This document shows positions 2,435-7,169 of a DNA stretch of 42,755 bases, in pieces. The notes under the pieces were generated by a model. That model worked only from the letters and a program-made list of their open reading frames with translations. It had not been told where the DNA came from and ran no database searches. The position numbers and the translations under genes are program-made. The stretch is from a virus: positions 1 to 42,755 of IMG/VR virus record IMGVR_UViG_3300031576_000120, one strand, 5' to 3'. Within the stretch, counting starts at the first letter, position 1. Each line of letters starts with the position of its first letter.

Positions 2435-3326
2435 GAACCCGTCGCCTCTGGCGGAAGCACTCGCCAAGCTAGAGGCTGACCAGTCCTTCCGAAATCGGGA
2501 CGGGTTCAGCATCAGCGGCATCGGTAACTGTGCCGCACAGCAGTTGTTCGGTATCTCGGGCTTCTCACGGGGCAACCCGCCGCCTGGACGGACGCTGCTG
2601 ACGTGGCGGCTAGGGAACCTGATCGAGCAGGAGTTGTATTACCTGATCGAACAGGTCGCTGGCTACACCATCGTCGGGAAGCAGAAGCAGCTTGTCGGTA
2701 GTGGCCCGCCGAGAGAGGGACACACCGACGGGTTCATCCTGATGAATGACAAGCTGTGGCTGTTCGATGCTAAGTCTGCCAACTCCCGCTCGTTTGACGA
2801 GTGGCTGGCGGCAGCGGGTGAGAGCAAGTGGTCGGTGATGAAGTCAGGCTTCGCCAGCTTCGACCCGATCAACATCCACGACCAGTCGTACCGTGCGGTG
2901 CGTCAGGTATACGAGTCCTACTTCACGCAGGCGCTAGGATACCTTGAGCTAATCAACAACCGCGAGGAGTACCAGTCGTACCGCATCGACAACATGGCCG
3001 ACGTGCCAGAGGCGCTGGCCGCAGCCGCCATCGACGGTGCGGTGCCAATCGCCACTGAGGGCATGTACTTCTACGTGTACAGCAAGGACGACAGCAGGCT
3101 GTACGAGGAGTTCGTGCCTTACGACGGCAGCTACGTCGAAGAACGACTCCGCATGTTGGCAGAAAGTTACGAGCGCGTTGCCCCCATGCTCCCTGCCGAC
3201 ACCGCCGAGAAGCAGGACGAACTGATCGCCGTCATTCAGGAGTACAGGGAAGTACCGCTCAAGGAAGATGGCGACAAGCACTGGAAGTGTGTACGCTGTC
3301 CGTTCGTGGAAGTGTGCCGCCCTTGA
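2283..3326 (+). CDS. Cas4/RecB-like PD-(D/E)XK exonuclease with Fe-S cysteines
   Basis: 347 aa. The nuclease core shows D149 (GHTDGFIL) and D162-A-K164 (LWLFDAKSA), followed by a QxxxY-like helix. C83 upstream and C336, C339 and C345 at the C-terminus match the one-plus-three cysteine layout of the 4Fe-4S cluster in Cas4/AddB-type nucleases. Such enzymes resect DNA ends for recombination. Here it sits with an HNH nuclease and a SWIM protein, suggesting a recombination or DNA-degradation module. The first ~50 residues are basic and low complexity and overlap the SWIM gene by 152 bases. A GGGGTGAGG sequence precedes the ATG. Confidence 0.75.
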   Translation: MARRASTSTRSRKAAPEAPPKPRRASRRVARASDQAPTQTSEAATPSITVRNPSPLAEALAKLEADQSFRNRDGFSISGIGNCAAQQLFGISGFSRGNPPPGRTLLTWRLGNLIEQELYYLIEQVAGYTIVGKQKQLVGSGPPREGHTDGFILMNDKLWLFDAKSANSRSFDEWLAAAGESKWSVMKSGFASFDPINIHDQSYRAVRQVYESYFTQALGYLELINNREEYQSYRIDNMADVPEALAAAAIDGAVPIATEGMYFYVYSKDDSRLYEEFVPYDGSYVEERLRMLAESYERVAPMLPADTAEKQDELIAVIQEYREVPLKEDGDKHWKCVRCPFVEVCRP

Positions 3327-3352
3327 CACAGCGTTGTTGAATGTGCTAAGAT
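3323..3352 (+). promoter_or_regulatory. sigma70-type promoter before HNH gene
   Basis: TTGACA at 3323-3328, an 18-base spacer and TAAGAT at 3347-3352. The -35 box overlaps the stop codon of the preceding gene. The ten bases covering the -10 entry (AATGTGCTAA) are identical to those of the promoter before the tRNA array. Confidence 0.7.
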
Positions 3353-4060: not shown

Positions 4061-4423
4061 ATGGAGAGCGAGAGAATCTTTCGTATTCCCCCGCTGCAAC
4101 CCACCTACGTCGCACACCCCGGCAACATGGACGCGGACGAAGCGTTCGCCATCGTGTTCCGTGGGCCAGAGGAAGGGTTCACAACAGACAAAGGTTACTT
4201 CATCAACGACGCACACATCGTAGCCCGCCTGCTAGCGTGGCTCACCTCCCAGGTGTGGCAAGATGCGTTCGCCGCTGAGTTTCAGCGAGCATGTGCTGAG
4301 GTCGAGGCCGATTCTGACGGGATCGATGCTGCCGATCTTTCGGAGTTTCTTGGCGGGCCTGTGCCTACGGCTGCCATCGAGCTTCATCAAACTGTGAGGG
4401 TGTCAGGGGTACAGGAGTCGTAG
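4061..4423 (+). CDS. hypothetical protein
   Basis: 120 aa, not recognised. Acidic and soluble, with a Trp/Leu-rich helix (about residues 57-75) and no transmembrane segment. It starts directly after the preceding stop (TAG-ATG), so it is probably translationally coupled. It is the last protein gene before the RNA region. Confidence 0.5.
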   Translation: MESERIFRIPPLQPTYVAHPGNMDADEAFAIVFRGPEEGFTTDKGYFINDAHIVARLLAWLTSQVWQDAFAAEFQRACAEVEADSDGIDAADLSEFLGGPVPTAAIELHQTVRVSGVQES

Positions 4424-4713
4424 CTGGCGATAGGTGGAAGGGTACGCGGATGCAACCCCCCGTGATACCACCGACTCGCCAGAGGAATTATCGCCCACCG
4501 CTTGCAACGCACCGACAATGAAGAAGGTCGGCGGGTGTGGCATGGATGCCCACCCAGGTCATGCCAACAGAGACGAGTAGCGGATGATTGAAACGGGGTA
4601 CAGGCTGCGGGGTGCGAGTCCTAGCGGGTAGCAAGCATGGACTAGGACGCAAAGGCGTAGGATGGCCAACAGGGGGATTACGGCATAGAACAGAAGGCGA
4701 GATACACTGGCCC
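4424..4713 (+). ncRNA. candidate structured RNA upstream of the tRNA array
   Basis: No convincing gene lies here, but the sequence is full of complementary segments. CTGGCG (4424-4429) pairs with CGCCAG (4477-4482) and GGTGG (4433-4437) with CCACC (4468-4472), forming one two-part long helix. GGCGATA (4426-4432) could instead pair with TATCGCC (4489-4495), which is mutually exclusive with the first helix. Further stems are CCGAC/GTCGG near 4512-4531, TGGCATG/CATGCCA (4538-4544 with 4560-4566) and GTCCTAG/CTAGGAC near 4618-4648. The strand is taken from the flanking genes. No known RNA family was recognised. Confidence 0.5.
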
Positions 4714-4743
4714 TTGACAGCCCCTCACGAAATGTGCTAACAT
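4714..4743 (+). promoter_or_regulatory. promoter of the tRNA array
   Basis: TTGACA at 4714-4719, an 18-base spacer and TAACAT at 4738-4743, followed by a leader of about 60 bases before the first tRNA. It is identical in spacing and in the AATGTGCTAA block to the HNH promoter. It probably drives the whole RNA array. Confidence 0.75.
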
Positions 4744-4808
4744 ACATAGGTGGCCAGACAGATAGGCACGAATGCGCGCTGTTGCCGATACTGAGTAACC
4801 ACAATCGC

Positions 4809-4884
4809 GCTTTCGAAGTGTATTGGATTGCACACTCGCCTGTCACGCGAGAAGCAGCGGGTTCGATCCCCGTCGATAGCGCCA
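4809..4884 (+). tRNA. tRNA-Asp(GTC)
   Basis: 76 nt with encoded CCA. D-stem GTGT/GCAC, anticodon stem CTCGC/GCGAG, anticodon GTC at 4842-4844, T-loop TTCGATC, discriminator G as usual for Asp. A T4-T69 mismatch interrupts the acceptor stem. Confidence 0.9.
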
Positions 4885-4955
4885 GCGGAGTCCATTGGAT
4901 GGTGGCGAAACTCCAAATCTCGCCTTCGTGGGTTCGATTCCTACACGCCGTGCCA
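4885..4955 (+). tRNA. tRNA-Trp(CCA), shortened D arm
   Basis: 71 nt. Anticodon CCA at 4913-4915 in loop CTCCAAA, T-stem GTGGG/CCTAC and encoded CCA. Only about 14 nt separate the acceptor from the anticodon stem, so the D arm is reduced. One mismatch in each of the acceptor and anticodon stems. Confidence 0.75.
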
Positions 4956-5040
4956 GCAGAATTGGTGGAATTGGCAGACACACTGGTCTTAGAAACCAGC
5001 GCCGCAAGGCATACGGGTTCGACTCCTGTATTCTGTACCA
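4956..5040 (+). tRNA. tRNA-Leu(TAG)
   Basis: 85 nt, class II with a long variable arm. Anticodon stem CTGGT/ACCAG, loop CTTAGAA, acceptor GCAGAAT/ATTCTGT, discriminator A, CCA encoded. It abuts both neighbours. Confidence 0.9.
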
Positions 5041-5115
5041 GCTTCGTTCGTCTAGTGGTTAGGACGCCACCCTCTCAAGGTGGCGACAGCGGTTCAACTC
5101 CGCTACGAAGTACCA
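5041..5115 (+). tRNA. tRNA-Glu(CTC)
   Basis: 75 nt. Anticodon stem CCACC/GGTGG, loop CTCTCAA, acceptor GCTTCGT/ACGAAGT, encoded CCA. A second Glu tRNA (TTC) lies at 5885. Confidence 0.9.
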
Positions 5116-5190
5116 GCTTCTCTAGCTCGAAGGCAGAGCAGTTGCTTTACACGCAATTGGGTGCGGGTTCGATTCCTGCGAGAAGTACCA
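5116..5190 (+). tRNA. tRNA-Val(TAC)
   Basis: 75 nt. D-stem GCTC/GAGC, anticodon stem GTTGC/GCAAT, loop TTTACAC, T-stem GCGGG/CCTGC, acceptor GCTTCTC/GAGAAGT, CCA encoded. Confidence 0.9.
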
Positions 5191-5267
5191 GCACACGTAG
5201 CTCAGATGGTTAGAGCACCGATCTGATACATCGGGGGTCGCACGTTCGAGTCGTGCCGAGTGTACCA
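5191..5267 (+). tRNA. tRNA-Ile(GAT)
   Basis: 77 nt. Anticodon stem CCGAT/ATCGG, loop CTGATAC, T-stem GCACG/CGTGC, CCA encoded. There is an A5-A68 mismatch in the acceptor stem. Confidence 0.9.
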
Positions 5268-5341
5268 CAGAGTGAAGTGTTACGGCAGCACAGGTGGTTT
5301 GGGGCCATCGGGACGGGGTTCAATTCCTCGTACTCTGACCA
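5268..5341 (+). tRNA. tRNA-Pro(TGG)
   Basis: 74 nt. It starts with C1 paired to G72, as expected for bacterial Pro tRNA. Anticodon loop TTTGGGG, T-loop TTCAATT, acceptor CAGAGTG/TACTCTG, CCA encoded. Confidence 0.9.
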
Positions 5342-5415
5342 GCATCGTTGGGCTAGCGGCAGACCGTGACGTTGCCAACGTCGAGGCGCGTGTTCGATTC
5401 ACGCACGATGCACCA
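5342..5415 (+). tRNA. tRNA-Gly(GCC)
   Basis: 74 nt. Acceptor GCATCGT/ACGATGC pairs perfectly. Anticodon stem TGACG/CGTCG, loop TTGCCAA, T-stem GCGTG/CACGC, CCA encoded. Confidence 0.9.
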
Positions 5416-5416
5416 C

Positions 5417-5491
5417 GGGGGATTAGGCTATCAGGGAAACCATCTGCCTTGCAAGCAGAATTGCGGAGTTCGAGTCTCCGATTCTCCACCA
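5417..5491 (+). tRNA. tRNA-Ala(TGC)
   Basis: 75 nt. Acceptor GGGGGAT/ATTCTCC contains the G3-U70 wobble that marks Ala tRNA. Anticodon stem TCTGC/GCAGA, loop CTTGCAA, CCA encoded. Confidence 0.9.
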
Positions 5492-5492
5492 C

Positions 5493-5566
5493 ACTCCATT
5501 CGTTCAATGGTAGGATACGCGGTTGTTACCCGTAGGATCAGGGTTCGAATCCTTGATGGAGTGCCA
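5493..5566 (+). tRNA. tRNA-Asn(GTT)
   Basis: 74 nt. Acceptor ACTCCAT/ATGGAGT, anticodon loop TTGTTAC, T-stem CAGGG/CCTTG, discriminator G as usual for Asn, CCA encoded. Confidence 0.9.
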
Positions 5567-5643
5567 GTTCCTTTAGCGCAGTTGGATAGCGCGCGACCCC
5601 GCGAAGGTCGAGGTCAGTGGTTCGAGTCCACTAAGGAATACCA
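5567..5643 (+). tRNA. tRNA-Arg(GCG), C33 variant
   Basis: 77 nt with a perfect anticodon stem CGACC/GGTCG. The loop reads CCGCGAA, so the nearly universal U33 is C, and the anticodon is GCG instead of the usual bacterial ACG. Acceptor GTTCCTT/AAGGAAT, CCA encoded. Confidence 0.85.
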
Positions 5644-5719
5644 GCTTCGGAAGCTCAATTGGCAGAGCAGGCGGCTCTTACCCGTCCGGTTGCGAGTTCG
5701 ACTCTCGCCCGTAGCACCA
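5644..5719 (+). tRNA. tRNA-Lys(CTT)
   Basis: 76 nt. D-stem GCTC/GAGC, anticodon loop CTCTTAC, T-stem GCGAG/CTCGC, CCA encoded. It has the same T4-T69 mismatch as tRNA-Asp. Confidence 0.9.
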
Positions 5720-5809
5720 GGAAGATTGGCAGAGTGGCCGATCGCAGCAGTTTGCTAAACTGTAGCCCGTGAATTCGGGCCAGGGGTTCGAATCCTCTAT
5801 CTTCCGCCA
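5720..5809 (+). tRNA. tRNA-Ser(GCT)
   Basis: 90 nt, class II with a long variable hairpin (AGCCCGTG...CGGGCC). Anticodon loop TTGCTAA, acceptor GGAAGAT/ATCTTCC, discriminator G, CCA encoded. Confidence 0.9.
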
Positions 5810-5810
5810 C

Positions 5811-5884
5811 TGTTCGTTCGTCTAACGGTAGGACGCGGGCCTCTGAACCCCGAAATCATGGTTCGAATCCATGAGGAACAGCCA
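5811..5884 (+). tRNA. tRNA-Gln(CTG)
   Basis: 74 nt. U1-A72 with discriminator G is typical of Gln. Anticodon loop CTCTGAA, T-stem CATGG/CCATG, CCA encoded. C31-C39 and G6-G67 mismatches. Confidence 0.88.
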
Positions 5885-5958
5885 GGATCATTCGTCTAAC
5901 GGTAGGACGCGGGCCTTTCAAACCCGCAACCGGAGTTCGACTCTCCGATGATCTACCA
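5885..5958 (+). tRNA. tRNA-Glu(TTC)
   Basis: 74 nt. Anticodon loop CTTTCAA, T-stem CGGAG/CTCCG, acceptor GGATCAT/ATGATCT, CCA encoded. The anticodon stem has a C31-A39 mismatch. Its 5' half is closely similar to the adjacent Gln(CTG), suggesting duplication. Confidence 0.88.
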
Positions 5959-6028
5959 GCCTTCGCTCAAGGCGAGCGCCGTCCCTCGTAAAGACGGCTT
6001 GAGAGTTCGATTCTCTCCGATGGCCCCA
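5959..6028 (+). tRNA. tRNA-Thr(CGT), compact D arm
   Basis: 70 nt. Anticodon loop CTCGTAA, T-stem GAGAG/CTCTC, CCA encoded. A 4-bp D hairpin with a 5-nt loop (GCTC/GAGC) begins inside the acceptor linker, so the D arm is shortened. T4-T69 and C31-A39 mismatches. Confidence 0.8.
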
Positions 6029-6029
6029 C

Positions 6030-6092
6030 GGGTCTTTACATGGCTGTCCTTGCTAGCGGGGGCTGGTTCGATTCCAGTAATGAGACTCATCA
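6030..6092 (+). pseudogene. degenerate tRNA
   Basis: A T arm (GCTGG-TTCGATT-CCAGT) and a plausible acceptor (GGGTCTT/GAGACTC) are present. However, three extra bases (6079-6081) split T stem from acceptor, the 3' end reads TCA instead of CCA, and no good anticodon stem can be drawn. It is most likely a decayed tRNA, or a tRNA-like element of unknown use. No anticodon is assigned. Confidence 0.5.
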
Positions 6093-6093
6093 C

Positions 6094-6179
6094 GGAACGT
6101 CTAACATTGGCGTGTGCAACCGTCTTGAAAACGGCAGGGTGTGAAAGCCTTGAGGGTTCGATTCCTTCACGTTCCGCCA
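6094..6179 (+). tRNA. tRNA-Ser(TGA)
   Basis: 86 nt, class II. Anticodon loop CTTGAAA, long variable arm, T-stem GAGGG/CCTTC, acceptor GGAACGT/ACGTTCC, discriminator G, CCA encoded. Confidence 0.9.
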
Positions 6180-6254
6180 GCGAGTTTAGTGTAGCGGCTA
6201 TCACGCCTGCCTTCCAAGCAGGAAACCGGAGTCCGATCCTCCGATCTCGCACCA
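6180..6254 (+). tRNA. tRNA-Gly(TCC)
   Basis: 75 nt. Anticodon stem CCTGC/GCAGG, loop CTTCCAA, CCA encoded. The T loop is TCCGATC, so the usual U55 is C. T6-T67 mismatch in the acceptor. Confidence 0.88.
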
Positions 6255-6255
6255 C

Positions 6256-6329
6256 TGAGGGTTCGTCTAATGGTAGGACGGGAGCCTTTGAAACTCCCTA
6301 CCTGGGTTCGAATCCTAGACCCTCAGCCA
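6256..6329 (+). tRNA. tRNA-Gln(TTG)
   Basis: 74 nt. Acceptor TGAGGGT/ACCCTCA with U1-A72 and discriminator G. Anticodon loop CTTTGAA, C31-A39 mismatch, CCA encoded. Confidence 0.9.
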
Positions 6330-6405
6330 GCCATGCTAGTGACAACGGCTAGCACAGGGACTTGGTAAGTCTCAAGACTGAGTTCGATTCTCAGGCGTGG
6401 CTCCA
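6330..6405 (+). tRNA. tRNA-Thr(GGT)
   Basis: 76 nt. Anticodon stem GGGAC/GTCTC, loop TTGGTAA, T-stem CTGAG/CTCAG, acceptor GCCATGC/GCGTGGC, discriminator T, CCA encoded. The D arm can form GCTA/TAGC shifted toward the acceptor. Confidence 0.87.
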
Positions 6406-6406
6406 C

Positions 6407-6483
6407 GGCAACGTAGCCCAACGGCAGAGGCAACGGCTTCAAAACCCGTACAGGTGCCAGTTCGAATCTGGCGGTTGCTACCA
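6407..6483 (+). tRNA. tRNA-Leu(CAA)-type, short variable loop
   Basis: 77 nt. Spacing from the 5' end places the loop TTCAAAA at 32-38, giving anticodon CAA. Bacterial Leu tRNAs have long variable arms, but this one has only about 6 nt, so charging is uncertain. C31-C39 mismatch. T-stem GCCAG/CTGGC, CCA encoded. Confidence 0.75.
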
Positions 6484-6484
6484 C

Positions 6485-6559
6485 TGCGGAGTGGTGCTCT
6501 GGTGAGCACATCAGATTCATAACCTGACAAGGCGAGTTCGATCCTCGTCTCCGCTACCA
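6485..6559 (+). tRNA. tRNA-Met(CAT)
   Basis: 75 nt. Anticodon loop TTCATAA, D-stem GTGC/GCAC, T-stem GCGAG/CTCGT, CCA encoded. Position 1-72 is a T-T mismatch, reminiscent of initiators, but the three G-C pairs of an initiator anticodon stem are absent. Elongator Met or Ile2 are also possible. Confidence 0.85.
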
Positions 6560-6629
6560 GCCCTCGCGCACGGTGCGTGCAGCCCCTTGTAAGGGCAGCC
6601 ACAGAGTTCGACTCTCTGCGATGGCTCCA
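6560..6629 (+). tRNA. tRNA-Thr(TGT), compact D arm
   Basis: 70 nt, the same compact architecture as Thr(CGT). Anticodon loop CTTGTAA, T-stem CAGAG/CTCTG, discriminator T, CCA encoded. Position 4-69 is again mismatched. Confidence 0.82.
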
Positions 6630-6630
6630 C

Positions 6631-6707
6631 GGTGTTGATAGTGTACTGGTTGTGCATGGTAGGCTGTGAACCTGCTGGTACGAGTTCGATCCTCGTTCAT
6701 CACCCCA
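6631..6707 (+). tRNA. tRNA-His(GTG)
   Basis: 77 nt including an extra 5' G(-1) at 6631 opposite discriminator C73, the hallmark of His tRNA. Anticodon stem GTAGG/CCTGC, loop CTGTGAA, CCA encoded. T4-T69 mismatch. Confidence 0.92.
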
Positions 6708-6784
6708 CTGTCGGTAGAGTTCTGGCGGAACGACGCGGACTGTAAACCCGCTCAAGCGTGGTTCGATCCCACGACGACAGACCA
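6708..6784 (+). tRNA. tRNA-Tyr(GTA), class I type with C1-G72
   Basis: 77 nt. Anticodon loop CTGTAAA is typical of Tyr. It has C1-G72 and a short variable loop, whereas bacterial Tyr tRNAs normally have G1-C72 and a long arm. T-stem CGTGG/CCACG, discriminator A, CCA encoded. Confidence 0.82.
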
Positions 6785-6860
6785 GACGCGATAGCTCAGT
6801 TGGTAGAGCGTTCGGTTGAAACCCGAAAGGTCGGCGGTTCGAGTCCGCCTCAAGTCACCA
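6785..6860 (+). tRNA. tRNA-Phe(GAA)
   Basis: 76 nt. D-stem GCTC/GAGC, anticodon stem TTCGG/CCGAA, loop TTGAAAC, T-stem GGCGG/CCGCC, CCA encoded. Two acceptor mismatches (4-69 and 5-68). Confidence 0.9.
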
Positions 6861-6936
6861 GCATCCTTAGCTCAGTGGATAGAGCGGCGCGCTTCGAACG
6901 CGAAGGTCGGGGGTTCGAATCCTCTAGGGTGTTCCA
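6861..6936 (+). tRNA. tRNA-Arg(TCG)
   Basis: 76 nt. Anticodon loop CTTCGAA in stem GCGCG/CGCGA, T-stem GGGGG/CCTCT, acceptor GCATCCT/AGGGTGT, discriminator T, CCA encoded. Confidence 0.9.
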
Positions 6937-7009
6937 GCATCGTTCGTCTTGGATGGCGTAGCAGTGTTCTAAGCTGCGAGGGTGGGTTCGAATCCTACAC
7001 GGTGTACCA
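6937..7009 (+). tRNA. tRNA-Arg(TCT)
   Basis: 73 nt. Anticodon stem GCAGT/GCTGC, loop GTTCTAA, T-stem GTGGG/CCTAC, acceptor GCATCGT/ACGGTGT, CCA encoded. The D arm is two bases short and G32 is unusual. Confidence 0.85.
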
Positions 7010-7010
7010 C

Positions 7011-7093
7011 GGGGGCAGACGGGTTCGACAGCGACGCAGAACCGCACGTCGGAGTGTTGCTGGACAGGAGTTCGACTCTCCTTGCTTCCACCA
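7011..7093 (+). ncRNA. tmRNA-like tRNA-like domain without message region
   Basis: 83 nt. Acceptor GGGGGCA/TGCTTCC has the G3-U70 pair and A73-CCA needed for alanine charging, and the T arm AGGAG-TTCGACT-CTCCT is normal. The D side reads ACGGGTTCGAC, matching the conserved GG(N)TTCGAC of tmRNA 5' ends. There is no anticodon arm. Instead CAGCGAC and GTTGCTG form a 7-bp helix like tmRNA helix P2, closing a ~20-nt loop. No tag reading frame with a stop is present, so it may be a deletion remnant or a minimal functional form. A very aberrant tRNA is the alternative. Confidence 0.55.
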
Positions 7094-7094
7094 C

Positions 7095-7169
7095 GGCGCT
7101 TTAGCCAAGCGACTAAGGCTCCTGTCTGCAAAACAGGGATCGTGAGTTTGATTCTCACAAGCGCCTCCA
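7095..7169 (+). tRNA. tRNA-Cys(GCA)
   Basis: 75 nt. Acceptor GGCGCTT/AAGCGCC is perfect. Anticodon stem CCTGT/ACAGG, loop CTGCAAA, CCA encoded. The T loop is TTTGATT, with U in place of the invariant C56. Last member of the array. Confidence 0.9.

Follow-up and report, generated by a model that had tools for sequence, protein, structure and literature searches.

RNase P RNA is an ancient RNA enzyme that frees tRNAs from longer transcripts in cells. It is among the oldest known ribozymes and is regarded as a cellular housekeeping gene. The described forms include bacterial class A RNA (RF00010) and archaeal RNase P RNA (RF00373). The reduced RNase P RNAs of CPR bacteria resemble the RNA studied here in that P12, P18, and other elements are absent and that they were found only below model cut-offs; they differ in belonging to cellular genomes, and the text searched describes no phage copies (PMC8172020). 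GOLLD and ROOL RNAs occupy the same genomic neighborhood, beside phage tRNAs. No earlier report of a phage-encoded RNase P RNA was found in the open-access PMC literature searched, which is weak evidence of novelty; a survey of huge phages that lists translation genes makes no mention of RNase P in its searched text. In this study, we describe an RNase P RNA-like region in a bacterial virus and compare it with these systems.

The window, the whole stretch of DNA analyzed here, is the 42,755-base virus record IMGVR_UViG_3300031576_000120. Its gene set is that of a tailed phage (terminase, major head protein, DnaB-like helicase, and DNA polymerase); together with the CCA encoded in its tRNAs and its sigma-70-like promoters, this points to a virus that infects bacteria. 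No useful relatives of the phage were obtained by protein searches with DnaB, TerL, and a Cas4-like protein or by an exact 17-mer search, from which records very similar to the window may have been hidden, and sequence searches found no close homolog of the RNA. The region lies between the end of an open reading frame (ORF) at 4423 and the first tRNA at 4809, directly upstream of a 27-tRNA array. We consider it likely that 4394-4728 is a divergent, shortened RNase P RNA gene whose product cuts the phage's own tRNA array; expression and catalysis are predicted from sequence.

By its sequence, the region is homologous to RNase P RNA, with P1-P5, P7-P9, P15, CR-I, CR-II, CR-III, CR-V, and the P4 pseudoknot all assignable on the plus strand. 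The ends of the gene are approximate and were set by P1. P1 was traced by hand from complementarity. Its 5' strand (4394-4414) falls within the last part of ORF 4061-4423, and its 3' strand (4707-4728) includes the TTGACA of the array promoter; 4401-4414 pairs with 4707-4719 (13 pairs, A4411 bulged), and 4394-4400 with 4722-4728. The P2 5' strand GTCGTAG (4417-4423) pairs 7/7 with TTACGGC (4678-4684). The complementary segments reported in the preliminary description were found where it had placed them and form the P3 hairpin (4424-4482): CTGGCGA (4424-4430) pairs 7/7 with TCGCCAG (4476-4482), and distally GGTGG (4433-4437) pairs with CCACC (4468-4472). P2 and P3 adjoin P4. CR-I (GAGGAA, 4482-4487) and the P4 5' strand ATTATCGCC (4487-4495) together occupy 4482-4495, and the P2 3' strand, CR-V (ACAGAA, 4690-4695), and the P4 3' strand GGCGAGAT (4696-4703) occupy 4678-4703. 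P4 itself, ATT(A)TCGCC with GGCGAGAT, has 8/8 pairs in the canonical register, is flanked by CR-I and CR-V, and carries a single bulged nucleotide at position 69 (A4490, where U69 is expected), as RNase P RNA requires.

The 5' strands of P5 (CACC, 4496-4499) and P7 (CGCA, 4508-4511) span 4496-4511. They are followed by the P8 hairpin (4512-4531; CCGAC at 4512-4516 with GTCGG at 4527-4531), which was assigned by covariance model (CM) alignment and whose 5' CCGAC occurs twice, and by the P9 hairpin GGGTGTGGCA/TGCCCACCC (4533-4555). CM alignments also placed CR-II AACAGAGACGA (4566-4576), a minimal P12, and CR-III TTGAAACG (4588-4595) within 4566-4595. The 3' strands of P7 (TGCG) and P5 (GGTG) and J5/15 (GCGAG) span 4606-4618, with G4616 at the A248 position, and P15 (GTCCTAG/CTAGGAC, 4618-4648) encloses the loop GGGTA (4626-4630) with a candidate CCA-binding GGU. 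The pairings of P5, P7, P8, P9, and P15 are complete, the S-domain CR-II/CR-III and J5/15-P15 occur in the expected order, and P10-P12, P16/17, and P18 are weak or absent. In E. coli, G292-U294 binds CCA (PMC11143913); by analogy, L15 could do so here.

No Rfam family reached its gathering score in the region, in a search that the preliminary description had proposed. At a relaxed threshold, RF00373 was the best-scoring Rfam model and matched 4413-4715 over its full length at 26.4 bits (E = 6.6e-6 for all families on 381 bases; E = 1.8e-7 for this one model on the whole record), sharing the motifs ACAGAGACGA, UGAAACG, GGACGC, and GAACAGAAGG. This score is below the gathering threshold of 84, so the RNA was not assigned to this Rfam family, and the window, in contrast, has the features of a bacterial virus. 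RF00010 (gathering threshold 100) has CR-I/CR-V with P4, P1-P5, P7-P9, CR-II/III, and P15 in common with the window RNA; however, it gave no match, so the RNA was not assigned to that family either, and the window RNA differs in having no clear P12, P16/17, or P18, A at position 69, and G at position 248. Most other phage copies, unlike the window RNA, score above the RF00010 cut-off. The GOLLD and ROOL models gave no match in the window, and the RNA resembles neither in sequence or structure.

A set of 12 RNase P RNAs from other phage records, the window left out, served to build the covariance model R1. With filters off, R1 gave a full-length match to 4455-4712 that scored 38.3 bits (E = 1.9e-14, a rough value owing to shortened calibration), and the runner-up in the window scored 8.2 bits; with default filters, only an 8.9-bit fragment was kept in the window. 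A descriptor of CR-I, CR-V, and P4 in register matched once in the window and not at all in 5.13 Mb of shuffled window sequence.

The preliminary description had proposed a structured, switch-like RNA at 4424-4713. A structured non-coding RNA beside the tRNA array was borne out. The coordinates given are too short, since P1 extends to about 4394 and 4728. The region was also called gene-free: no plus-strand ORF of at least 80 aa is listed within 4424-4713, but a minus-strand ORF (4559-4981) is present, which extends into tRNA-Asp and is a mechanical match. The switch reading was dropped. TATCGCC is located at 4489-4495, where it had been read as an alternative partner for the 5' part of the first stem; that stem is P3, the supposed competitor is the 5' half of P4, and P4 explains this segment better, with its partner (4696-4703) 200 bases downstream and in the canonical register. 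The suggestion of an unrecognized ornate RNA like GOLLD or ROOL was not supported either, as the family is recognizable from homology to RNase P RNA. The folding energy of the region is ordinary (MFE -97.8 vs. -96.0 ± 5.2 for shuffles; z = -0.35); hence, energy alone would not pick it out. Judged by sequence conservation together with pairing, the region exceeds chance by a wide margin.

Searching IMG/VR with the pattern CR-I + CR-II + CR-III retrieved 30 contigs, of which 12 carry an RNase P RNA according to RF00373, and a second pattern added further records. RF00010 matched 24 of the 26 pattern-selected records (window included) and its cut-off was exceeded in 21 of the 26, on contigs of up to 379 kb; because the records were selected by RNase P patterns, these counts are no frequency among phages. 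Viral origin was supported by phage genes, namely T4-like Gp23 (G035), terminase (G040), and portal, terminase, and DNA polymerase (G061). The RNase P RNA gene lies among tRNA genes in many fetched loci. In six RNase P RNA-bearing loci (L012, L025, L035, L038, L043, and L014), the tRNAs of the fetched locus are only Ala, Asp, Cys, Glu, Gly, and Val, a set that equals the GNN codons plus Cys. RNase P RNA and GOLLD RNA occur together in one phage tRNA array (L026, 2782-3109 and 3479-3941). An RnpA gene (PF00825) was found in none of the 26 records, which may be fragments; host RnpA, or the RNA alone, would thus have to serve.

Covariation in homologs, on which the preliminary description had let its proposal depend, was checked on the phage homologs and is present. 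In the 12-RNA phage alignment, 86% of cells are paired and double changes occur at 41 of 53 pairs (neither value was reached in 500 shuffles), and shifting the pairing partners abolishes the signal; this covariation speaks for the phage class, and for the window only its own compensating differences count. When 17 different P4 helices, that of the window among them, are compared, 7 of the 8 pairs vary through compensatory or alternative standard pairing, and a single broken cell occurs, in one pair. R1 with strict filters had no match in eight tRNA-rich phage isolates, a result that carries little weight. A blastn search of a phage collection with six other phage RNase P RNAs returned only bacterial rnpB, chance pieces, and tRNA pieces; an Acinetobacter 'phage' match was taken as host rnpB, as it adjoins bacterial genes and a prophage integrase.

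The proposed substrate is the array of 27 ARAGORN tRNAs (4809-7169, plus strand), which also includes a mini tmRNA and additional tRNA-like sequence. CCA is encoded in 27/27 tRNAs, and the 24 short spacers comprise 17 of zero length and 6 of one base. With this arrangement, 5' cuts would leave the previous tRNA ending in CCA or in CCA plus one base, and, judging from the anatomy, RNase P cuts alone could yield both ends of most array tRNAs. The stretches 5959-6093 and 6937-7010 are tRNA-like and were not called by ARAGORN. The tmRNA-like element is 83 bases long (7011-7093), lies between tRNA-Arg and tRNA-Cys, and matched RF00023 at 57.4 bits with the ends of the model joined; it has no room for a tag reading frame, and its acceptor stem has a G3-U70-like pair. 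A promoter-like TTGACA-18-TAACAT (4714-4743) precedes the array, and another, TTGACA-18-TAAGAT (3323-3352), could transcribe the upstream ORFs and the RNase P RNA; both are on the plus strand. The two sites have AATGTGCTAAnAT in common (3340-3352 and 4731-4743), which by count alone is within chance.

A very divergent RNase P RNA-like sequence with P4 paired 8/8 was observed in L134 (5041-5327, minus strand), within an array of 38 tRNAs that has 27 spacers of zero length. No rate is claimed for how often RNase P RNA accompanies abutting arrays, as the RNA or the finding led to the choice of L005, L036, and the window; L134 is the only unbiased case, and most of the 120 loci found by a tRNA pattern are without the RNA in the fetched locus.

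U at bulged position 69 is near-universal in RNase P RNA and was not treated as defining. The window has A at this position vs. U in 28 aligned phage RNAs, a set in which two pairs are the same RNA twice. The bulged U69 is implicated in metal binding (PMC11143913). The A in the window RNA could impair metal binding, which lowers confidence in the predicted catalysis.

Residue 248, numbered here from a Salmonella RNase P RNA, adjoins the scissile bond and neighbors the base that precedes the cut. Of the 28 phage matches, 24 have it as the A in GCAA; L044 and L112 have GAAA, and L005 and L090 have GCGA. J5/15 of the window, read by hand, is also GCGA, with G at 248. When A stands at -1, cleavage by the G248 mutant of the E. 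coli RNA is faster than that by A248 RNA (5.8 vs. 0.08 on a minimal substrate; PMC10465520). The G248 loci are the window, G002, G061, and G123, the last being the one new RNA from a G248-requiring pattern (26 tRNAs, 2 of them with U at -1, and spacers mostly of 3-6 bases). L134 was excluded from the statistics, as it scored only 9.1 bits with R1 and its residue 248 was assigned by hand. U stands at -1 in 17/121 tRNAs of the four G248 loci vs. 240/437 of the 21 A248 loci (exact rank test, p = 0.0006; p = 0.024 for the two non-abutting G248 loci alone), with tRNA 5' ends as called by ARAGORN, loci sampled unevenly, and kinship ignored. This relation was partly noticed after the fact, covers four G248 loci, in two of which abutment partly forces it, and was weakened when the -1 U of G061 rose to 14/46 (30%) on wider sampling. 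The low -1 U in G248 phages is in line with the published kinetics, and the G248 of the window appears to suit the A and C found at -1 in its array.

In the mechanism that we propose, the RNA would be made during infection, most likely from a long upstream transcript that starts at the promoter at 3323. It would bind the RnpA protein of the host, because the phage shows no RnpA gene, and would then cut the phage tRNA array, each cut 5' of a tRNA also leaving the preceding tRNA with a mature or nearly mature 3' end. A broader proposal, to which we give somewhat less than even confidence, is that bacterial viruses encode an RNase P ribozyme of their own that is matched to the tRNA arrays they carry. 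The G248 RNA and the spacer-free CCA-tRNAs of the window would then form a unit of enzyme and substrate: cutting by RNase P alone would make most tRNAs mature, or nearly so, at both ends, and only the protein subunit would come from the host.

The same lack of RnpA means that any product would compete for the host's, so the RNA could instead be a decoy derived from RNase P RNA that occupies RnpA or precursor tRNAs and lowers host tRNA processing. The A at position 69, given the role ascribed to U69, agrees with such a decoy. However, CR-I, CR-V, P4, and the L15 GGU are intact, the RNA is located immediately ahead of the tRNA array of the phage itself, and residue 248 covaries with phage tRNA leaders, pointing to phage substrates; we therefore regard a decoy as unlikely. 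The substitution at 69, the low scores, and the missing helices would also fit a decaying gene without function. Drift would break pairs, yet P4 is unlike that of other phages at most pairs and is still paired 8/8, and P2, P3, and P15 are complete, which makes decay quite improbable.

Least probable of all, and already disfavored, is a chance likeness to RNase P RNA in some other structured or switching RNA, such as a GOLLD/ROOL-like RNA or a riboswitch. The tRNA-array setting, the ordinary folding-energy z-score, the absence of any family above its cut-off, and the joint presence of GOLLD and RNase P RNA in one other phage array are compatible with it; nevertheless, two independent covariance models pick the same place over their full length, and the descriptor had no match in the shuffled sequence. 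An RNase P RNA that acts on the phage tRNA array remains our preferred reading.

If this is true, phages would take over tRNA processing itself, beyond tRNAs and synthetases. They would also provide an extensive natural collection of divergent RNase P RNAs, each with its substrates in one genome, and the A248/N-1 contact, debated from mutants, would become testable by natural covariation.
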